From IMG/VR virus record IMGVR_UViG_3300030389_001864, positions 1 to 35,661 of that record: a stretch of 35,661 bases of DNA; one strand, written 5' to 3'. Below, piece by piece: positions 1-14,270 of this stretch. Position numbers and translations under genes: made by a program. The notes beneath the pieces were generated by a model that worked only from the letters and a program-made list of their open reading frames with translations, was not told where the DNA came from and did no database searches. Within the stretch, counting starts at the first letter, position 1; each line of letters opens with the position of its first letter. Origin of the DNA: a virus.

Positions 1-99
1 GCAGACTTGGCAACCTTATCCCTCACTTTGCGGATGGAGGACATGAGTTGATCCTCAGACACTTGCTGCCTTTGTAACGTCTCTGTCTTCCTTAGAGCA
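1..99. repeat. Left copy of terminal redundancy (circular joint)
   Basis: Bases 2-99 are identical to 35564-35661, the last 98 bases of the window. Base 1 is g where its counterpart 35563 is a. A minus-strand gene reads in frame through the joint, so this is best explained as the overlap of a circular assembly or of a circularly permuted genome. The unit genome is then about 35,562 bp. The one-base difference may be a polymorphism or an error. Confidence 0.9.
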
Positions 100-188
100 G
101 GAGAGAACTCCATACGCATTGCATGAATTTCATCTGTAAGACGGGCTATAGACTCAATTAGCTTATTCAGTGTATTTTCTTCTTGCAT
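1..188 (-). CDS. Small hypothetical helical protein, first gene of the replication operon (wraps the joint)
   Basis: The gene starts at ATG 188 and runs leftward off the window edge. It continues at 35563 and stops with TAA at 35559-35561, giving 63 aa. The product is rich in E, K, R and Q, looks wholly helical (it begins MQEENTLNKLIES), and has no Cys or membrane segment. I do not recognise the family. Its stop overlaps the start of the VRR-NUC gene by 17 nt, which suggests coupled translation. It is the first gene after the strong minus-strand promoter at 255-283. A role as a DNA-binding or early regulatory peptide is possible but not shown. Confidence 0.75.
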   Translation of the reverse strand, partial: MQEENTLNKLIESIARLTDEIHAMRMEFSPALRKTETLQRQQVSEDQLMSSIRKVRDKVAKS

Positions 189-192
189 TCTG

Positions 193-262
193 ATTTACGT
201 TTCAATAGTATTGGTAACAGTCGTAAACATCGTAAATAACGTATCAGTGTGAGCACTTTACG
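193..262. promoter_or_regulatory. Operator-like cluster in the lysogeny/replication control region
   Basis: The 119-bp divergent gap holds four CGTAAA elements: ATTTACG at 193-199 (inverted), CGTAAAC at 222-228, CGTAAAT at 231-237 and CTTTACG at 256-262 (inverted). It also holds AACGTATCAG at 238-247. The last CGTAAA copy lies over the -10 of the minus promoter. Two of the CGTAAAC elements and the complement of AACGTATCAG recur in the other divergent control region (27749-27755, 27875-27881, 27911-27920). The natural candidate ligand is the XRE repressor encoded at 1697-2080. That assignment is inference. Confidence 0.5.
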
Positions 263-283
263 CATTAGTAAACTGCGTGTCAA
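255..283 (-). promoter_or_regulatory. Sigma70-type promoter for the replication operon
   Basis: On the minus strand a perfect -35 TTGACA (283-278) is followed after 17 nt by TAAAGT (260-255), which matches the -10 consensus at four of six positions. Transcription would start near 248 and run into the 63-aa gene at 188, then across the circular joint. Operator-like CGTAAA elements overlap the -10 and lie downstream of the start, as expected for a repressed lytic promoter. Confidence 0.65.
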
Positions 284-307
284 TCTTTTTTTTCAACAAG
301 GAGCAGA

Positions 308-1459
308 ATGGCAGGAGGAAGGGGTAAATATGAGTGGTTGTGGTATGACCCATCCAGAGAGCAGTACCGTGCTCTGATCTATATCAACGGGGTCAGGAAG
401 AGACCCAAGTTGATGACACGGAAAGAGGAACTGTCTCTGATTGAGAACGGGGCAGAGGATTGGGAGATTGAGAAGATCCTGAACGAGAGGTATAAAGAGA
501 TCCTAGATCAGTATGTCAACCCTGCAGAGGGGATGACCCTGAATGCTCTCTTGAATGACTACTGGACCCTGCATCTCAGTAATGAGAAACACGGTGCTCA
601 GTATGAGCTTTACCATAATTTCTGGAGGAAGCAGTTAGGAAAGAGACTGATCCAGGAGATTAAGAAGGGAGACATTGCAGTAGCCAGAGACACACTGAAG
701 GACCGTGCTCCCTCCACTAAGAACAAGTATGTCTACAGTCTCAGTTCTGTCTTTGAGTTTGCAGTCGAGAGAGATTGGTTAGAAGACAACCCTTGCAGAC
801 GGGTCAAGTCCCTCAAGGTGAAAAATGAACGAGACCGATGGTTGTCCACAGAAGAGTTGGACAGACTGTATGAGGAGTGTAAGAACTCCAACAACCCACA
901 TCTTTATCTGGCAGTCAGGATATCCATCCAGACAGGGTGCAGACGGGGGGAACTGTTTCCTAAGAAGTCCTATAAGAAGGACAAAGAGGGCAGACCCCTC
1001 AGAGACCCACAGAAGGTCTTTGACAGTTATGTGGGAGGGTTGAAGTGGGAGAACGTGGACCTAGATAAAGGTCTGCTCCTGCTCACCCACACCAAGACAG
1101 GACTGAACCGCAAGGTTGCAGTCACAGGAGATGCTCTCGATATGCTCAGAGACCTCTCCAAGACACCCTGCATCCACGGATATGTATTCCACATAAACGG
1201 TGTACCCGTGGCAGGGCAGACTCCATTGAGGGAGTCTTTTGAACGAGCGTGTCAACGTGCAGGTCTGGAAGACTTTCACTGGCACGATCTCAGGCATTGT
1301 TGTGCATCCTATCTTGCCCAGAGTAAGGCAACCGATCTGGAGATTGCTATCCAGTTAGGTCACTCCGGGACAGATCTGGTGAAACGCTATGCCCACTTGA
1401 GGGAGGACAACTCCCTGAACCTTGTCGAGAAGATCGAAAGGAGAACAGGTAAATTATGA
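308..1459 (+). CDS. int: Tyrosine-family site-specific integrase
   Basis: This 383-aa tyrosine recombinase would integrate the phage at attP (2189-2430). The catalytic set is visible: R212 in TGCRRGEL, K263, H326-x2-R329 in WHDLRH, H352 in LGHSGT and nucleophile Y361 in KRYAHL. Residues about 75-165 form the core-binding SAM-like domain (it includes LLNDYWTLHL and NPCRRVKSLK). The N-terminal ~70 residues would be the arm-binding domain. An extra ~26-residue, lysine-rich stretch (about 217-243) separates GEL from GLKWENVDL, which are normally nearly contiguous. The start is ATG with AAGGAG eight bases upstream. The stop overlaps the next mini-gene as ATGA, so integrase and repressor share an operon. 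Confidence 0.95.
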   Translation: MAGGRGKYEWLWYDPSREQYRALIYINGVRKRPKLMTRKEELSLIENGAEDWEIEKILNERYKEILDQYVNPAEGMTLNALLNDYWTLHLSNEKHGAQYELYHNFWRKQLGKRLIQEIKKGDIAVARDTLKDRAPSTKNKYVYSLSSVFEFAVERDWLEDNPCRRVKSLKVKNERDRWLSTEELDRLYEECKNSNNPHLYLAVRISIQTGCRRGELFPKKSYKKDKEGRPLRDPQKVFDSYVGGLKWENVDLDKGLLLLTHTKTGLNRKVAVTGDALDMLRDLSKTPCIHGYVFHINGVPVAGQTPLRESFERACQRAGLEDFHWHDLRHCCASYLAQSKATDLEIAIQLGHSGTDLVKRYAHLREDNSLNLVEKIERRTGKL

Positions 1460-1542
1460 AAACACAAAGAGGTGTTATAGGTAAGTGGTCAAGAAGTAAT
1501 CAGTTAGTCTATTTTGGACAAACATTTTGGGGGGAAAAATGA
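1456..1542 (+). CDS. 28-aa mini-protein between integrase and repressor
   Basis: The ORF starts at the ATGA that ends the integrase gene and itself ends in ATGA, which starts the next mini-gene. The 28-aa product is basic and aromatic (it begins MKTQRGVIGKWSRSN). There is no separate Shine-Dalgarno, so translation would depend on re-initiation. I recognise no family. The strict overlap on both sides is the main argument that it is translated. It could be a leader peptide that tunes downstream repressor synthesis. Confidence 0.5.
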   Translation: MKTQRGVIGKWSRSNQLVYFGQTFWGEK

Positions 1543-1700
1543 AATGGATTAATTGCCGTGGAGGTTTTGTTCATTACCATCCACCACCCAAATATTTAAT
1601 TACAGATTCGGCCCCAAAGGGTTCAAGTATTAATTACGCCTATACACTTAGGCGTAGGAAAAAATCTACTACGCAGTACCACCCACCACCAGATAAATGA
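1539..1700 (+). CDS. 53-aa mini-protein with two YHPPP motifs
   Basis: The ORF fills the gap between the 28-aa gene and the repressor, with ATGA overlaps at both ends. The product carries YHPPP twice, near residue 13 (HYHPPPKY) and at the C-terminus (QYHPPPDK), separated by a basic LRRRKK stretch near residue 42. I do not know the family. GGGGGGAAAA just upstream gives a weak ribosome site. It may bind the repressor or a host protein, but nothing in the sequence fixes a function. Confidence 0.55.
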   Translation: MKWINCRGGFVHYHPPPKYLITDSAPKGSSINYAYTLRRRKKSTTQYHPPPDK

Positions 1701-2080
1701 AAGCAAAAACAGAAGAGTCCATAGCACTAGGATTACGTCTAAAGGAAGCCAGAAACAGAACTGGACTGAATCAGGCAGAATTCGCAGAAAAGATAGGAGT
1801 TGCCCGTGACACAATCTCAAGGGCAGAGGTGGGAGCACAATCTCCCACAGAAAAATTATTAAGAAAGATCACAGAAGTTCATGGTATTGACTTTGTGTGG
1901 TTACTGACAGGAGATACTTCATCAAGAGAAAAGGAGGAGTATGACACACTAAAAGAAAAGTATGAGAACCAGGTAAAAACTATTACAGAGCAAAAAGCAA
2001 CCATTGCTGCTCTGGAGAAAACAATAACGATTTTGGCAACACAACTTAGAGGATCTTCTAATGACGAAAGGAGTAGTTAG
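1697..2080 (+). CDS. XRE-family (Cro/CI-like) repressor with coiled-coil tail
   Basis: This 127-aa protein has a lambda-repressor-type helix-turn-helix at about residues 12-66 (LKEARNRTGLNQAEFAEKIG, then TISRAEVG). The C-terminal half (about 78-117) is a heptad-rich coiled coil (EEYDTLKEKYENQVKTITEQ) and would supply dimerisation. There is no S24 autoprotease domain, so RecA-driven self-cleavage is not expected. It is the fourth gene of the integrase operon, coupled to the preceding gene by ATGA. It is the likely master repressor, though a Cro-like or activator role cannot be excluded. Confidence 0.85.
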   Translation: MKAKTEESIALGLRLKEARNRTGLNQAEFAEKIGVARDTISRAEVGAQSPTEKLLRKITEVHGIDFVWLLTGDTSSREKEEYDTLKEKYENQVKTITEQKATIAALEKTITILATQLRGSSNDERSS

Positions 2081-2222
2081 CTTAAAAAAGAAGATTCAGA
2101 AGACATCAAATAAGATTGAAGAGCAGGATGAGAAAATCCAATCTTTAATCTATGTGGTCAACCTTCTGATGGGGGAGATCAGTTCCAAAACTGGTCTCAA
2201 AAATGGAAGTGTTTCGCAATAA
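2061..2222 (+). CDS. Small coiled-coil protein downstream of the repressor
   Basis: This 53-aa ORF starts at ATG 2061, 20 nt inside the repressor gene and in another frame, and ends with TAA 2220-2222. GAGG lies about nine bases upstream. The product has a basic N-terminus (LKKKIQK), a heptad-like helix (NKIEEQDEKIQSLIYVVNLL) and a short polar tail. It resembles the repressor's coiled-coil tail in style, so it may hetero-oligomerise with it, for instance as an antirepressor or co-repressor. That is inference. Its 3' end overlaps the left attP arm element, so integration leaves it at one prophage edge. Confidence 0.6.
   Translation: MTKGVVSLKKKIQKTSNKIEEQDEKIQSLIYVVNLLMGEISSKTGLKNGSVSQ
2189..2216 (+). 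repeat. Left arm element of attP
   Basis: AACTGGTCTCA (2189-2199) matches the ACTGGTCCCA repeats on the other side of the tRNA-like core except for one base. TGGAAGTGTTTCGCA begins at 2204 and is followed by a near copy TGGAAGTGTCGCA beginning at 2242. Direct repeats on both sides of a core are typical integrase arm-type or accessory-factor sites. The assignment rests on position and repetition only. Confidence 0.5.
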
Positions 2223-2262
2223 GTGTGTAATTACAGATACATGGAAGTGTCGCACACTCCCT

Positions 2263-2300
2263 CCTAAATCTTGCGTGTCTACCAATTCCACCACTCTCGC
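2263..2300 (-). other. attP core: 5' half of a tRNA-Leu(UAG) gene
   Basis: Read on the minus strand from 2300, the sequence is the 5' half of a leucine tRNA: acceptor strand GCGAGAG, D-arm with AATTGGTAGAC, and anticodon strand CAAGATTTAGG with anticodon TAG. Similarity stops just past the anticodon, because the bases that should pair with CAAGA are absent and there is no T-arm. This is a core of identity with the host gene, with strand exchange at or near the anticodon loop. It is not a working tRNA gene. It lies downstream of the integrase-repressor operon. Confidence 0.75.
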
Positions 2301-2358
2301 AAAAGAGAAATACCGTGGGATTTCAGTCAGATACCCTGATCACAGGGTGTGAAACTAA

Positions 2359-2430
2359 ACTGGTCCCATACTGGTCCCAAAGTCAAATGGACCAGTTTTG
2401 GGACTATCTCAGTCCCAAATGCAGTCCCAG
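2359..2430. repeat. Right arm of attP: repeated ACTGGTCCCA elements
   Basis: ACTGGTCCCA occurs at 2359-2368 and 2370-2379, an inverted ACCAGT at 2391-2396, and AGTCCCA-type half copies near 2411 and 2423. TGGGACT (2399-2405) and AGTCCCA (2411-2417) form a perfect 7-bp inverted repeat around five bases. These are candidate integrase arm-type sites. The hairpin may also help end the two converging transcription units, although no T-run follows. The array reaches the stop of the endolysin gene. Confidence 0.6.
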
Positions 2431-2432
2431 AA

Positions 2433-2924
2433 TTACTCTGGCAACCCCGGTGTATATCGAACCTTACCCTTGACCCTGGATGCAGTAAGAACCTCCATCT
2501 TGTTGTCTTGGTCCAATGAGTCATAACTGACATGGACCCAACCTGAATTTGGCCCCTTCTTAGGGTCATAGAACTCCAAAATTAATTGTGAAAAACGGAG
2601 ATTGTCTCTGATCCAGACCGCAAGTTCAAGGTTGGATATTTCTTCAGAGATCACCTCAAAATCTGCTGCAGCCTTGGTAAAACTGCAACAATGATCTGAG
2701 GTGTCTGACCCCCCTGCAATTTCATTCACTTCGGGATTTCTGAAACAACTCGAAACACGAACCCGTCCAAAGTGATCTCTCACAGGCTGAAGCACGTTCT
2801 GTGTCAGAGCAGTCATGTTCACCAGTGCTTGAGGTGGTGGATTAAACTGTTCTTCTATTCCGTGCCTGACTGCGATGGTTGAAGCAACCAATTCTTTCAG
2901 AGAAAAATTCTTGGACAGGTTCAT
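2433..2924 (-). CDS. Peptidase M15-type endolysin
   Basis: This 163-aa protein resembles peptidase M15A (D-Ala-D-Ala carboxypeptidase/L-Ala-D-Glu endopeptidase) lysins, which cut the peptide stems of peptidoglycan. The N-terminus NFSLKELVAS and the RVSSCFRNPEVN segment are typical. Zinc ligands would be H78, D88 and H131 (GWVHVSY). The frame is open upstream to 3029, but ATG 2924 is chosen because the domain begins there and AGGGA precedes it, directly after the preceding gene's stop. There is no signal peptide, so export would depend on a holin. It is the last gene of the late operon. Confidence 0.85.
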   Translation of the reverse strand: MNLSKNFSLKELVASTIAVRHGIEEQFNPPPQALVNMTALTQNVLQPVRDHFGRVRVSSCFRNPEVNEIAGGSDTSDHCCSFTKAAADFEVISEEISNLELAVWIRDNLRFSQLILEFYDPKKGPNSGWVHVSYDSLDQDNKMEVLTASRVKGKVRYTPGLPE

Positions 2925-2928
2925 ATTA

Positions 2929-3195
2929 CTATCCCTTGATAAGATCCAAGACGGATTTGTGACCATGAGAGTTGTCACCGTCCACAGCACTGTCAAGTGC
3001 TTCTCGTACTTCTTTGGGAAGTTTATCAAGATGTGGTTCTAGGTGTTCTGCTGCTAACGATTGTGCTTTATCAGCGACAATATCTTTCAGCATGTTAGCC
3101 ACGAATGGCAGGACCAGATTGAGCATAACTTCTTCCTTTCTTTGTTTGGGGTTAATGAAGTCATAAAAAGTCTCAATTATTTTTGTTAAGTTCAT
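2929..3195 (-). CDS. Small lysis-cassette protein of unknown function
   Basis: The 88-aa product starts at ATG 3195 behind a very strong GGAGGAGG site and overlaps the preceding holin candidate by 23 nt. A modestly hydrophobic helix (MLNLVLPFVANMLKDIV, residues 24-40) is followed by a polar helical segment with EHLEPHLDKLPKEVREAL. It could be a membrane-associated lysis accessory protein. A shorter start at M24 is possible. I do not recognise the family, and the role is suggested only by its place between holin and endolysin genes. Confidence 0.7.
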   Translation of the reverse strand: MNLTKIIETFYDFINPKQRKEEVMLNLVLPFVANMLKDIVADKAQSLAAEHLEPHLDKLPKEVREALDSAVDGDNSHGHKSVLDLIKG

Positions 3196-3517
3196 TGTTT
3201 ACCTCCTCCTTCTTCTCATCGTTACTATCAGAGGTGTCTGACTTGGGATCTCCATACATGAAAGATCCAATTTGTGAAATCAGAACCGTGAGTGCTCCGA
3301 TCACGGATACCAAAAGTGTAGATGTTTTGTCATCCATCTGAATAGGTTGATACATCAAACTATAGATGGTGAACCCATACAGACCCAAGATCAGGATTGC
3401 TAAGAGAAACCTAAAAGATGCTCTTCTGAGAACAATTTTCTCTGTAACAGTAAACTCACGTTTACCATTTGCTTTGGGTGGGTCTGTCTCTGTAATTTTT
3501 TCTATGGTTTTAGCCAT
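3173..3517 (-). CDS. Two-TM holin candidate
   Basis: The 114-aa product has two predicted membrane helices, at about residues 35-56 (FLLAILILGLYGFTIYSL) and 68-86 (LLVSVIGALTVLISQIGSF), and a strongly charged tail (DSNDEKKEEVNNELNKNN). That layout fits a class II holin. ATG 3517 is preferred over an upstream ATG at 3541 because GGAGG sits five bases before it. The upstream gene ends eight nt inside this one. Confidence 0.65.
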   Translation of the reverse strand: MAKTIEKITETDPPKANGKREFTVTEKIVLRRASFRFLLAILILGLYGFTIYSLMYQPIQMDDKTSTLLVSVIGALTVLISQIGSFMYGDPKSDTSDSNDEKKEEVNNELNKNN

Positions 3518-3962
3518 TTCTACCTCCAATCCTTCCTGCAATCACATATTCTTTTAAACTCTCAACCTCCCTCTCCACATTCTGCATCCTAGTATCCAAC
3601 TGACCAATGGCAGTCTTCACCTCAATCCAATCTGTTTTATCCAGTGATTCTCTGACTAGATCCTCAAACTTGTCTGTGAGTTTGATACGGTCTTGTCGAG
3701 CCTGATTCTCAGTTCTATAGAACCACATACCCAGAATGATCAACATTGCTCCCACAATACCCTGACCCATAATCATGTCCACCAGTTGATTAGGCAGTTC
3801 GTTGATACCAGAGCTTTGTGGTTGCACCACACTAAACTGGTGGTACTGAGGTTCAGGTGGTACTTGCATTTGTTGCATAGTTTGCTGTGCCTTCGTCATG
3901 TGATGACCCATCCCGTATGCAGTACCTATGAGGAAAATGCCTGTCAGTATTAGTTTTCTCAT
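3510..3962 (-). CDS. Membrane-anchored lysis protein (holin or spanin-like)
   Basis: The 150-aa product has a short basic start plus hydrophobic helix (MRKLILTGIFLIGTAYG), a Q/P-rich linker, a second membrane helix at about 69-85 (GIVGAMLIILGMWFY), and a charged heptad-rich C-terminus. Such an arrangement occurs in phage holins and in spanin-like envelope proteins. It overlaps the 773-aa virion gene by four nt and the next lysis gene by eight. Which of the two TM proteins is the actual holin cannot be decided from sequence. Confidence 0.6.
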   Translation of the reverse strand: MRKLILTGIFLIGTAYGMGHHMTKAQQTMQQMQVPPEPQYHQFSVVQPQSSGINELPNQLVDMIMGQGIVGAMLIILGMWFYRTENQARQDRIKLTDKFEDLVRESLDKTDWIEVKTAIGQLDTRMQNVEREVESLKEYVIAGRIGGRNG

Positions 3963-6280
3963 ACGACTCTCTCGATGTCTGTCTGTGCTTGCTCTTTCAG
4001 ACCTTTGATCTTTCTGTCTCTCGTACCCATCTGATCTCCACCCTGATCCATAAAACTCATCTGAAAGTCACGGAGATAGGTCATAGTGGGGTCCACAGGC
4101 TTGCCCAAAAGAATACTGAGTTGGATCTTTTGAGGTAAGGTCATGTCAGGTTCTCCATTTGCCAGACCCTTAAATATTTCACCCTGTATGTTTTGGAAAA
4201 ATTCTGGATAAACAGAAACTATTGCTTCACGGTGCTCAGAAGTCAGTGTCCCATTTATTAAATGACCAAAGATTTTTAGAGGCTCATTTACAATTTCTGA
4301 ATACCTCATAAATTTTGCTAATTCTGCAGGGTTTGGCGTATAAGGTTTTTCTGGTAAAACTAACTGTAAATTTGCAGATGGGTCTTTAGGTAGTTTTGAA
4401 TGTAGAAAATTTACACCTCTTGCTAAGGACTGCATCACTGCACCCTGCACTGCAGTGTTACCTTTCATTGTTGGCATTGACTGCTCAATGCTTGCAAACA
4501 AAGAGTCTTGATTCGTCATCACCTCATTCAGATCTTTTCTCATTTTCTCAAAGTTTTTCATTTGAGACTTCATGCTTACTCGATCTGGATAAGTTCTACC
4601 TGCTACAACCGGGACTCCTTTCAAAGTCCCTTTCATCAAACCTTTTACTGCTTTTGTCATGATGCTTTGAGTTCTGGATATATTTCCCAAAGCACCTGTC
4701 ATGTCTAAAATGTTGTCCAGAGTCCTAGCAGCAATTAGTTCTCCTTTGTCCCTTGCCATTTTTCGGAGCAACATACCTGTCATCAAACCTGCAGTACCAC
4801 CACCTATGCTTCCCAGAATGGACTCTCCTGCAGCAATACCTCCTGCTCCCAGACCTGCACCTAAGTTCATTGATGTCAGACCAAACGTATTGTTGACTGC
4901 ATCTCTACGCACAGATGCAGACATGAGCATCTCTAAGTCTCTAAGATCACCATAGTCATTTTTGAGTTGTTTGAATGTTTCAAAGAGTGCTTTGTCTGGG
5001 TTATTTATCAGACTTTGCTCCACACGTTCCAAAACATTCTCAGACTCCTCTCTGAGCACCTTAGACATAGATCCATAGATTCGGTCCATCCCATCAGAAA
5101 CTGATGTTCCAGGCATGGGTTTAGTCCAGTTCTTGAGCTTGGAATACAGACGTTTCTGTGTCTCTAATCCAAAGAAATCTTGGTCAGGAAGTTTTCTGAT
5201 CTCATCAATCTCTTTGTCTGCTTTATTGATCAGATTCTTTACTGCTTTTGGTAATTGATTTTCTGGTATGAGTTCACCAGAAGGATCTTTAAACTGTGCT
5301 CTGATCTCTAACTTCATTCGGTCTGCTAGATCACTGGTATTGACTAGGAAGTTGTCACCTTGAACCTTTCTGACCTCTTTCAAAACATCGTTGAGCTTCT
5401 GACCTGTCTGGGGTATTAGACTGTCCTGAAGTGTGTTCAGAATGTTTTCATGATCTGAAAGAGATTTGATTGCACCTTGTTGTTGGAGTTCTCTCATCCT
5501 TCTACCAATCTGACCAACTCTCTCCCGATTCATTCCATAACGGGTCAGTTTGTTGTATTCAGGAGTTCTTGCACCTGTAGATCTGAAGTAAAGGTAATCT
5601 GCCAGAGACTTGCCCTTACCCCCAACAAAAGAAAGAGATCGAGATAACAGACCAGAAATACCACCTATTGCACTTCCAAACCCAGATCCTGCTATAATTT
5701 GCTCTGCAGACAGGTTTGGTTTTTCATTTAAGATAGACTCAGAGACTGCCATTGGTGTGGTTGCAATGGCACCCTCGACTGCTCCAGAAGCAATACCTCC
5801 AGTAATCTTACCTTTGAGTCTGCTCTTGACTAAGGAACTACCAATAGCCATTGCTCCACCCACAGGTGTGAAGCGTGGCAGAACCGCAAGAGCTTCACCT
5901 GTTAAGTTAAAACCAGGATTTGCATCACGATAGGCTTTGATAGCATCTGCAGGAATACCTGCATCTGTCAGAAGTTTGTCTGAGTATCCGAATGAGAGGG
6001 ATCTCAGAAAACCAAGTGCTAGAGAAGTTCCAGGTCTTTTAGAAGCAAATGACCTAAGTTTTGCCAACTCAACATCTTTTGCCCCTGCATACTGATACCC
6101 ATCTCTTAGTGCTAAATGTCCATCAGTGGCAGGTATCTCAAAGACATCACCAGTGTCATCTTTGATGTGTACTTTGTCACCTTGGAGAAAAGAATGACTG
6201 CCACTCAAAACTAATTGAGCAACTTCATTATCAGGAACAGTTCTGACTTCCTCTGTCTCGTAATCGTAAAGTCTTGCCAT
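3959..6280 (-). CDS. Internal virion (ejection) protein, 773 aa
   Basis: This is the last of three consecutive long proteins in the position of podovirus ejection proteins. It has several glycine/alanine-rich, membrane-compatible segments: around 130-165, around 190-215 (SGFGSAIGGISGLLSRSL) and around 470-505 (NLGAGLGAGGIAAGES). These are separated by long charged helices. Such proteins are packed inside the capsid and form a conduit through the host envelope during DNA entry. The family call is by context and composition; no catalytic domain such as lytic transglycosylase is evident. The start overlaps the preceding gene's stop. Confidence 0.7.
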   Translation of the reverse strand: MARLYDYETEEVRTVPDNEVAQLVLSGSHSFLQGDKVHIKDDTGDVFEIPATDGHLALRDGYQYAGAKDVELAKLRSFASKRPGTSLALGFLRSLSFGYSDKLLTDAGIPADAIKAYRDANPGFNLTGEALAVLPRFTPVGGAMAIGSSLVKSRLKGKITGGIASGAVEGAIATTPMAVSESILNEKPNLSAEQIIAGSGFGSAIGGISGLLSRSLSFVGGKGKSLADYLYFRSTGARTPEYNKLTRYGMNRERVGQIGRRMRELQQQGAIKSLSDHENILNTLQDSLIPQTGQKLNDVLKEVRKVQGDNFLVNTSDLADRMKLEIRAQFKDPSGELIPENQLPKAVKNLINKADKEIDEIRKLPDQDFFGLETQKRLYSKLKNWTKPMPGTSVSDGMDRIYGSMSKVLREESENVLERVEQSLINNPDKALFETFKQLKNDYGDLRDLEMLMSASVRRDAVNNTFGLTSMNLGAGLGAGGIAAGESILGSIGGGTAGLMTGMLLRKMARDKGELIAARTLDNILDMTGALGNISRTQSIMTKAVKGLMKGTLKGVPVVAGRTYPDRVSMKSQMKNFEKMRKDLNEVMTNQDSLFASIEQSMPTMKGNTAVQGAVMQSLARGVNFLHSKLPKDPSANLQLVLPEKPYTPNPAELAKFMRYSEIVNEPLKIFGHLINGTLTSEHREAIVSVYPEFFQNIQGEIFKGLANGEPDMTLPQKIQLSILLGKPVDPTMTYLRDFQMSFMDQGGDQMGTRDRKIKGLKEQAQTDIERVV

Positions 6281-8436
6281 TATTGACTTATGTTGCCTAC
6301 TTTTTGTGCCTTAGAAGCATCAAATCTTCGTTTTTTCTGTGTCCCTTGTTGGTTTTGTTGACCTCTAGTTCTGATGTTTACAACGTCATTTCTGACTAAA
6401 GAATCTCTGTAAGTTCTTCTCATTTCATTTTGCAGGTTTTTTAGACCAGAGACATAAGTTCCAAATGCCAAATCTTTGACATCAGGATCTCCCACAATAC
6501 GGTCAATAATGACAACCTCAGTACCTGTCAGGTTTGCCCCTGCTTGTGCAATCTCTCTTTGGTAATAACTCTTTAACAATGCGTGTAACTGTCTTACTTT
6601 TTTACCTGCTTCAGTAACACTAATTTTTGCTTGGACGGGTTGTGCTTCTGCTATATCAATAAGTTGTTCTATCAAACCTTTATTTGATTCTTTGTAAGAG
6701 ACCAACCTTTTGTAATCATCATCCATAAGATCGTAATAGGCAGGATTTGAATCTGGATTACCCATGATCTTCATATAACCACCTATAAAAGTATTAAAAT
6801 TTTCAAACACTTTTAATATTTTTTCTTTAGACATTGATTCACCAAACTCACCCACTTGATTACCTACAAGTTTTACAGTTCTCAAACGTCTAAGTTCATC
6901 TTGAGATAATCTGTTTTTAGCTAGGGCAGCATCGTAAGCAAGTCTTGCTTCTTCTTTTTGTTGTTTGAGTCTCTTATCATCTAATTCCAAACCTGCAATG
7001 GTGGTTTGACGTTCAAACAATCTGTCTGCTTCTGCATACAGTTCTGCTTTTCTTTGTGCCAAAATTTCATTCTGTGTAAGCAAAGAAGTCCTCTGTCTTT
7101 CTAACTGCTCTTTCTGGATAGCAAGGTCATCATCGATTGCTTTGTTAATAATATTTAGTGCAAAGTTGGGTGTGCCTGTCATTGCACTAGCATAAGCTCC
7201 CAAACCTGCAGCAATGGCTGCAAGAAACTTACGTCCAGTGTCTTCTTTGCCAAAAAAAGGTTGGATCTTACCCTCTGAGATCTGCAGTAATTTTTCGTTG
7301 TTTGCTTTGATTTCTTCATTAATGTCTTGGAGTGCAGTCACATCAAGACCATCCTCAAACATGAACTCAGTTTCTGCGATTTCAATCACTGCATTCGCAG
7401 CATCCTCATCCTCAATGATCTGCTTAACACCTGACTCATTTGTGACTTTGGTTACAGTAGTGTCTTCAGTTGTGTCAGTTGGTGTTGTAGTTGGCGAGAC
7501 TGCAGGTTTTTGAAGATCAGTGGCTTCTCTTATAGCTATATCTGCTATTTGTTCTGGTACTGCACCACCTTGAGTGGGATCAGGACCTCCAGGTAATATA
7601 AAGTTTTTGACACCATCTATAGTTTTATCAATCAGTGTTTGATCAACATCTTTTTTTTGTTCTTCTGGCAGATTTTTTATAACCTCATTGACTGCCTTCT
7701 TAATATTTTCATTTTCAGTAAAAGGTGGAGTAAACCCCAGTGTTTCTACTGCATTATTAAATGATGCTTTTGCTTCTGTCTGTAAACCTGACATTTCTTC
7801 AGATGACCTATACATAAGATCACCATCTTTACTAAGGGCATAGGGTAATCCTAAAGTGTAGAGTGTATTTTCAAAAACGTAGGTTGTTACAGGATCAGTC
7901 AATCCAATAAAGGTCTGGTCTGAACCAAGTAAAGGTCTTAAACCTGCACCTGGAAACTGTGTCTTTTTACTCTCTGCGGTATCTGTAGCAACAATTTCAC
8001 CCTGACCTTCAAGCACCGTAGAAGGAGTAAGATCTGTTTGGTTTACTGTCTCAGCAACTGGTTCAGGTTGTAAGTTTTGTTGCAATGCAGACTTAATCGA
8101 TTCATCTGTAAGTTCTAGGGTGTCCAAGTCTTGTTGGACAGTGTTTCTGACTATGGGTCTTTGTCTTGGGATGGGTTGTCTGTCAATCTTTGTCTCCTGC
8201 ACAATATCTGCAGGTTTCAGGTCCATTGCAGTCTGGGGTTCAGTCTGTGGCTGAGTATCAGTCGCATCTACTACCTTTCCATCCTCTACAATAATAAATC
8301 TGGGAATGTTACGAGCAGACTCTGCACCTGTGCTCTGTACCAGATTTAAAAGAGATGTCTGGATTCCTCGTTTATTCAAAGTCTGCAGGATTTGATTGCC
8401 TGTCTGCCCACTTACATCAACAATTTCCTGTGCCAT
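6280..8436 (-). CDS. Internal virion (ejection) protein, 718 aa
   Basis: The second of three long proteins behind the tail nozzle. The N-terminal ~350 residues are acidic, T/Q/P-rich and probably disordered. A hydrophobic small-residue segment (FLAAIAAGLGAYASAMTG) lies near residue 405. Long charged helices follow (NEILAQRKAELYAEADRLFE), and the tail is basic. The pattern fits podovirus internal proteins released into the host envelope. No enzyme motif is seen. It ends one nt into the next gene and follows the 618-aa gene after nine nt, consistent with joint expression. Confidence 0.65.
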   Translation of the reverse strand: MAQEIVDVSGQTGNQILQTLNKRGIQTSLLNLVQSTGAESARNIPRFIIVEDGKVVDATDTQPQTEPQTAMDLKPADIVQETKIDRQPIPRQRPIVRNTVQQDLDTLELTDESIKSALQQNLQPEPVAETVNQTDLTPSTVLEGQGEIVATDTAESKKTQFPGAGLRPLLGSDQTFIGLTDPVTTYVFENTLYTLGLPYALSKDGDLMYRSSEEMSGLQTEAKASFNNAVETLGFTPPFTENENIKKAVNEVIKNLPEEQKKDVDQTLIDKTIDGVKNFILPGGPDPTQGGAVPEQIADIAIREATDLQKPAVSPTTTPTDTTEDTTVTKVTNESGVKQIIEDEDAANAVIEIAETEFMFEDGLDVTALQDINEEIKANNEKLLQISEGKIQPFFGKEDTGRKFLAAIAAGLGAYASAMTGTPNFALNIINKAIDDDLAIQKEQLERQRTSLLTQNEILAQRKAELYAEADRLFERQTTIAGLELDDKRLKQQKEEARLAYDAALAKNRLSQDELRRLRTVKLVGNQVGEFGESMSKEKILKVFENFNTFIGGYMKIMGNPDSNPAYYDLMDDDYKRLVSYKESNKGLIEQLIDIAEAQPVQAKISVTEAGKKVRQLHALLKSYYQREIAQAGANLTGTEVVIIDRIVGDPDVKDLAFGTYVSGLKNLQNEMRRTYRDSLVRNDVVNIRTRGQQNQQGTQKKRRFDASKAQKVGNISQ

Positions 8437-13722: not shown

Positions 13723-14270
13723 TGTTTAATCTCCATTGCTGTTATACGTATCGGTGTAGTAGTAGTTACATCCCATTGCCCGCTAGAGGTGTCATATCTT
13801 CCGCATCTGCAACTAATCACGATATCGTTAGTCCCATCACTTGTGTATTCTGCAAATGCGACTCCAGGTGCGCTTGAAAAGGAACCTGCTGAATTGTTAT
13901 GAGCTTCTGTCCCACCAGAAAAATAGAAATTTGGCGTACCAGATGCCCCTGATTGGGCAAAATTAAGACCGCATTTTGTTTTGCGACTTGTACCATTTGA
14001 TACGAGTACTGCTTTTCCACCAAGCGCCCAAGCTACAATCTTTGACCCATTTTGCGGACTTGAAAGAGTAAGAGTTGTTCCAAATGTGGACCCATCATCG
14101 GTAGCAATAACTCCAGATCCAGAGGTGTTTATAACAGAAACATATTGGATAACATGACCTGCAGGAAAAGTAACATCCGAATGCAAAGTAACCGCACTGG
14201 AACTAAGTGTTGCTAGGGTCTTAGTCGCTGAAGCATCTTTAATATTGTCTACTTGAAGGTCGCTAGGCAT
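13719..14270 (-). CDS. Tail-fibre/receptor-binding protein, cassette C
   Basis: This 183-aa protein begins with a segment shared with the fibre at 14600-15199: IKDASATKTLATLSSSAVTL here, against IKDKSGTKTLATLSSSAVTL there. After residue ~40 (FPAG) the two proteins diverge. The rest is a beta-rich, S/T/G-rich domain. A conserved virion-attachment end plus a variable tip suggests an alternative receptor-binding fibre. A chaperone-like gene follows with an ATGA overlap. Confidence 0.65.
   Translation of the reverse strand: MPSDLQVDNIKDASATKTLATLSSSAVTLHSDVTFPAGHVIQYVSVINTSGSGVIATDDGSTFGTTLTLSSPQNGSKIVAWALGGKAVLVSNGTSRKTKCGLNFAQSGASGTPNFYFSGGTEAHNNSAGSFSSAPGVAFAEYTSDGTNDIVISCRCGRYDTSSGQWDVTTTTPIRITAMEIKQ

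Follow-up and report, generated by a model that had tools for sequence, protein, structure and literature searches.

Phage 186 has an annotated lysogenic operon of the form pL-cI-int-orf69-attP, in which cI shares 1 nt with int; downstream come Orf69 and then attP, which has arm sites and lies in a tRNA remnant. The int gene of this phage has been used as a reporter of lysogenic transcription (PMC7708051). In mycobacteriophage BPs, the repressor and the integrase are made from one leftward transcript originating at Prep (PMC4557955). Given these two precedents, integration and immunity that rise together are an established design. Two further types of system bear comparison with the locus described here. 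Integrases of the pTN3 type use attachment sites in the 5’-half of tRNA genes, and are archaeal and rare in bacteria (PMC8371274), the 3’-half being the typical case (PMC10865867). TF-smORF antirepressor modules encode small proteins shown to inactivate cI (PMC10432266).

The DNA analysed, referred to below as the window, is the 35,661-nt virus record IMGVR_UViG_3300030389_001864. It carries 98-bp direct terminal repeats at its ends and is therefore apparently the complete genome, about 35.56 kb, of a small temperate phage. In this phage, as in 186 and P2-like phages, a repressor and a tyrosine integrase gene overlap or abut neighbouring genes in one direction, opposite to an early lytic operon, a small ORF separates the last large gene from attP, and arm sites and a tRNA-derived attP are located at the operon end. 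It differs from 186 in that int (308–1459) comes first and the XRE repressor gene (1697–2080) after it, whereas cI precedes int in 186; in having mini-ORFs between these two genes; and in an attP that is the 5’ half of tRNA-Leu rather than the 3’ end of a tRNA-Ile gene. The two integrases are only about 25% identical. The preliminary description of the locus had presented the coupling of integrase and repressor as a departure from the usual arrangement, but joint control is already known from the cI-int overlap of 186; co-expression of the two genes is not new, and the locus is best regarded as an instance of this known type in which the genes stand in reverse order.

Like BPs and its relatives, the phage would have a common repressor/integrase transcript, and its attP adjoins the repressor. 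In BPs, however, attP is inside the repressor ORF, so that integration shortens the protein, while here the core (2262–2300) is beyond the repressor stop and the protein is unchanged; integration-dependent immunity of the BPs type was rejected for this reason. The pTN3-type systems are similar in that the att identity is the 5’ half of a tRNA, so that the restored tRNA receives new upstream DNA, and differ in that here the element is a bacterial phage and the integrase gene is intact, not split by integration. The TF-smORF modules, too, combine an XRE regulator with nearby proteins that are very small and without homologues, but theirs are divergent from or counter-oriented to the regulator, and those described here are upstream of the repressor in its own operon. 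The repressor neighbourhood of Burkholderia phage Mana was also considered and set aside, as no int is found beside the repressor. The int-then-repressor order, a repressor start lacking a Shine-Dalgarno (SD) site and reached via mini-ORFs, and integration at the 5’-half of a tRNA would be testable variations on the textbook switch.

Phage genome and host group

The terminase, portal, head, tail-fibre and internal virion genes are on the minus strand. The replication genes (helicase-loader/initiator-like, SSB and exonuclease) share that strand; they extend leftward of the int promoter region and past the joined ends, so that the int-XRE and early operons are divergent. A lysogeny switch is classically located at such a point of divergence.

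The 39 bp of the attP common core (2262–2300, minus strand) are identical to the 5’ half of a tRNA-Leu(TAG) gene, spanning its 7-nt anticodon loop (TCCTAAA, antisense) and all bases back to the first. Exact matches to a 38-mer of attP were found in three genomes of the genome collection, all SAR324 (two titled SAR324 cluster and one Deltaproteobacteria), and a shorter attP pattern detected the same three only among 52 genomes of the phylum. As attP matches the tRNA-Leu of SAR324, these deep-ocean bacteria appear to be the host group. The window thereby adds an apparently complete temperate phage whose attachment site is defined and points to a host group; a literature search of limited scope disclosed no described temperate SAR324 phage. 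ARAGORN and Rfam found no RNA gene over the window, the expected outcome for an attP that is half a tRNA.

Two large genes (3959–6280, 773 aa, and 6280–8436, 718 aa) had no PHROG match. The former, which belongs to the virion block, is kept in all relatives found that span the region and includes a 43-nt stretch (5479–5521) that is 82% identical to a part of int (853–895, E 4e-4). A 41-kb contig, G063 (IMGVR_UViG_3300030102_001222), has only the virion-gene block, about 3.5–15 kb, in common with the window, with 93–95% identity over most of it and no detectable similarity in the fetched parts beyond, and the two appear strongly mosaic relative to each other.

Structure of the proposed lysogeny operon

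A divergent control region (189–307) separates the early/replication operon on the minus strand from the lysogeny operon on the plus strand. The first gene of the latter, int (308–1459, stop codon TGA), has a good SD site (-7.7 kcal/mol), and its product matches Phage_integrase (PF00589, 1.1e-21; catalytic domain) in Pfam and the integrase PHROG (7.8e-59). It is followed by a 28-aa ORF (1456–1542), a 53-aa ORF (1539–1700) and the XRE gene (1697–2080), all on the plus strand and joined by three ATGA overlaps, one at the start of each. A 53-aa helical, coiled-coil ORF (2061–2222, plus strand) then overlaps the repressor end by 20 nt, an ordinary overlap and not ATGA. On recomputation, the junctions and the final overlap were as the preliminary description gave them. 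At its far end the operon reaches attP, which is flanked on either side by arm-type repeats; the repressor stop (2080) is 181 nt before the core. This position of attP, the divergent early promoter region and the absence of the mini-genes from a sister phage (see below) were not part of the preliminary description.

When the int-XRE spacer was subjected to 20,000 dinucleotide shuffles, with the ATGA of int held as given, an ATGA chain bridged the shuffled spacer to the XRE start in 0.07% of trials. The chain is therefore more than chance, even allowing for its selection from a whole window.

The sole sigma70-like match in positions 1–3200 was a leftward promoter candidate on the minus strand (TTGACA, 283–278; TAAAGT, 260–255); no plus-strand site was detected there, none ahead of int either, so the scan is uninformative about a promoter between int and XRE. 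An inverted repeat in the promoter spacer, ACGCA-N9-TGCGT, is a candidate operator only. The control region also includes an element, TTGACACGCA, that is present in the sister phage, the intergenic sequence of which is otherwise diverged.

The probable repressor and its translation

The XRE product matches HTH_3 (3.6e-13) and a PHROG of transcriptional repressors (1.5e-17), and its predicted model has a long C-terminal helix (residues 76–125). On these grounds it is taken as the probable lysogeny repressor, with the early promoter as its putative target. Its start has no SD site, with an SD energy of 0 both here and in the sister phage; that of the coiled-coil ORF is -5.8 kcal/mol. An SD is likewise lacking at about half of the ATGs of the window. 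Among the 32 assigned minus-strand genes of the window, SD-less starts were found in 11 of the 17 genes abutting an upstream stop (start within 4 nt of it) and in one of the 14 others (Fisher p=0.002). Since the repressor start is SD-less, and such starts mostly abut an upstream stop, the repressor is probably translated by re-initiation.

Related phages

In the sister phage L003 (IMGVR_UViG_3300030329_004562), the integrase has 94% amino acid identity, the coiled-coil ORF 87%, and attP is the same. L003 keeps the order int-XRE-coiled-coil-attP, and its int-XRE gap is 30 nt, with both mini-genes missing. Its arrangement, the ATGA chain and the SD-less repressor start together favour the earlier proposal of one coupled operon. 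Disruption of the mini-ORFs in relatives had been named as evidence against the earlier reading, and this was found in part: as the sister phage is without both, the mini-genes are not needed for an int-repressor operon. The comparison covers two complete operons, one with the mini-genes and one without.

Against L003, dS was 0.54 for int, 0.29 for XRE residues 1–12, saturated for residues 13–77, 0.39 for residues 78–120 and 0.31–0.36 for the coiled-coil ORF. The low values on either side of the saturated stretch (1733–1927, plus strand; flanks 0.29–0.39) thus indicate that the DNA-binding (HTH) segment of the repressor, like the operator region, has been exchanged or has diverged far beyond its surroundings, as in heteroimmune phages. 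The dN/dS was 0.07 for int and 0.15–0.21 for the coiled-coil ORF, which also has coding-like codon usage and, judged by its conservation, is a real gene. Matches to it in SAR324 (E about 0.001) were discarded, as they are inside 265-aa frames and reflect weak coiled-coil similarity.

A further relative, G006, shares attP and the arm sites, but in it the stretch from a repressor-like C-terminal end to attP is occupied by another ORF, of 105 aa. L062, about 94% identical elsewhere, lacks the whole cassette: 295 bp take the place of all DNA between the endolysin gene end and the early operon. It is possibly a virulent form. The lysogeny cassette is thus a discrete mosaic module with two variable slots, a compact 2-kb unit that relatives gain, lose and remodel. 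A 71-aa frame is present in the L062 segment that stands in its place (13845–14143), together with a perfect inverted repeat of 10 bp, GTTTACGATT/AATCGTAAAC.

The int-XRE order is not a general feature of SAR324, as the distant integrases of L004 and L005 and the SAR324 chromosomal integrases have no XRE behind int, as judged by eye.

The mini-ORFs and the proposed mechanism

Both mini-ORFs have a strong SD (-8.7 kcal/mol for the 28-aa and -9.3 kcal/mol for the 53-aa ORF), of a strength found at 4–5% of the ATGs in the window. The 28-aa ORF had no Pfam match and no significant PHROG match, and searches of IMG/VR viral contigs, SAR324 genomes and phage records gave no homologue of the 53-aa peptide; an apparent relative in G063 (L074, E 0.001) proved spurious, being antisense to a large gene and containing stops. 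The codon usage of the 53-aa ORF is atypical, with a score below that of 99.3% of equally long coding stretches, and AlphaFold, run on the single sequence without alignment, predicted an unstructured peptide (pLDDT 57). The paired YHPPP motifs noted earlier in this ORF are present and correspond to a 17-nt direct DNA repeat (1572–1588 and 1674–1690, 88%). The last PPP is two codons before the stop and, as a speculation, a stall there could modulate re-initiation.

That the two peptides are functional proteins, for instance an antirepressor, an excisionase or a repressor-tuning factor, forming a specificity module swapped together with the DNA-binding segment of the repressor, would fit the coincidence of mini-gene absence and HTH divergence between the two phages and the strength of the SDs, and repressor-inactivating phage proteins that are small and have no homologues have been described (PMC10432266). 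The lack of homologues in all three collections, the non-coding-like codons of the 53-aa ORF, the disorder predicted from its single sequence and a sister phage that manages without either peptide make this rather unlikely. In particular, as the searches gave no relative of the 53-aa peptide, the earlier suggestion that the peptides tune the repressor level is unsupported in the sense of a dedicated protein, and stays plausible in the sense of a cis-acting effect on translation.

The same codon usage would also fit a 240-nt spacer that acted mainly as DNA or RNA, as an internal promoter, as an operator at 1635–1656 or through a fold sequestering an SD (GGGGGG with CCACCC of the first YHPPP repeat), with the ORFs incidental. 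Indeed, the 53-aa ORF contains a perfect 8-bp palindrome or hairpin, TACGCCTA-N6-TAGGCGTA (1635–1656), besides the direct repeat, and the spacer has a 9-nt SD/anti-SD-like pair. Nevertheless, the spacer RNA folds no better than shuffles (z -0.6), nor is the overall fold at the hairpin significant (z -1.3), the plus strand has no promoter-like site, and an ATGA chain is improbable without selection for translation; we regard this alternative as quite unlikely. It is improbable, too, that the mini-genes are neutral leftovers of a recent recombination with no effect on the repressor. Their absence from the sister phage and their AT-richness (34% and 40% GC, against 49% for int) agree with such an origin, and the start of the 28-aa ORF resembles that of XRE (81% over 16 nt), as an insertion with duplication might leave. 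The chain probability of 0.0007 and the SD strengths argue against it.

The mini-genes are most likely non-conserved translation links that act in cis as a ribosome relay. With moderate confidence, the locus is interpreted as the lysogenic operon of a temperate SAR324 phage, in which one transcript runs from int to attP and the SD-less repressor start is served by re-initiation via the mini-ORFs. A single transcript from the control region (189–307) would cover int, both mini-ORFs, XRE and the small helical protein as far as attP, and the repressor would shut off the leftward early (replication) promoter, so that one transcription event would supply integration and immunity together, as in phage 186. 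Ribosomes terminating just upstream would re-initiate at the repressor start. The mini-ORFs, each with its own strong SD, would feed ribosomes to it, so that repressor synthesis would be set by the initiation rate of the 53-aa ORF and not by that of int, and the sequences of the mini-peptides would probably be of little importance. In L003, the start would have to be served from the int stop 30 nt upstream, a less direct, looser form of re-initiation across the gap before its SD-less XRE. If this relay is true, the phage ties immunity to integration and yet sets the rate of repressor translation separately.

The attachment site

The arm-type repeat of the P arm, ACTGGTCTCAAA (2190–2201, plus strand, one mismatch), is inside the coiled-coil ORF. 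Those of the P’ arm (2353–2432) are at 2359–2370 and 2370–2381, with an inverted copy at 2390–2405, and are kept in L003, L008 and L030. All copies of the ACTGGTCCCAAA-like 12-mer in the window with at most one mismatch flank attP, and from their position and symmetry the repeats are expected to be arm-type integrase sites. A 49-aa ORF across attP (2203–2352) was not accepted as a gene; its frame is open in L003 and G006 too, as the conservation of the attP DNA explains.

An attP carrying the 5’ half of a tRNA is the less usual case, and reportedly very few recombinant tRNA genes in bacteria are expressed from a promoter other than the original one (PMC8371274). After integration, the restored tRNA-Leu would be preceded by the segment 2301–2432 (minus strand), from which its promoter should come; no consensus promoter was recognised in this segment. 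Because attP carries the 5’ half, the host tRNA promoter would be left at the operon end, and a role for it in the switch can be imagined: in the prophage only, it would fire antisense into the coiled-coil ORF, the repressor gene and int, the restored tRNA would rely on a promoter in phage DNA, and integration would reset the repressor and integrase levels for which the mini-ORF relay sets the baseline. We consider this very unlikely.

A second group of viral contigs (L007, L009, L011, L012 and L013) encodes distant integrases and has other arm repeats (aggccacat), yet carries the same SAR324 tRNA-Leu 5’ half, in this case including the whole anticodon stem-loop. The unusual attachment site is thus common to two phage lineages.
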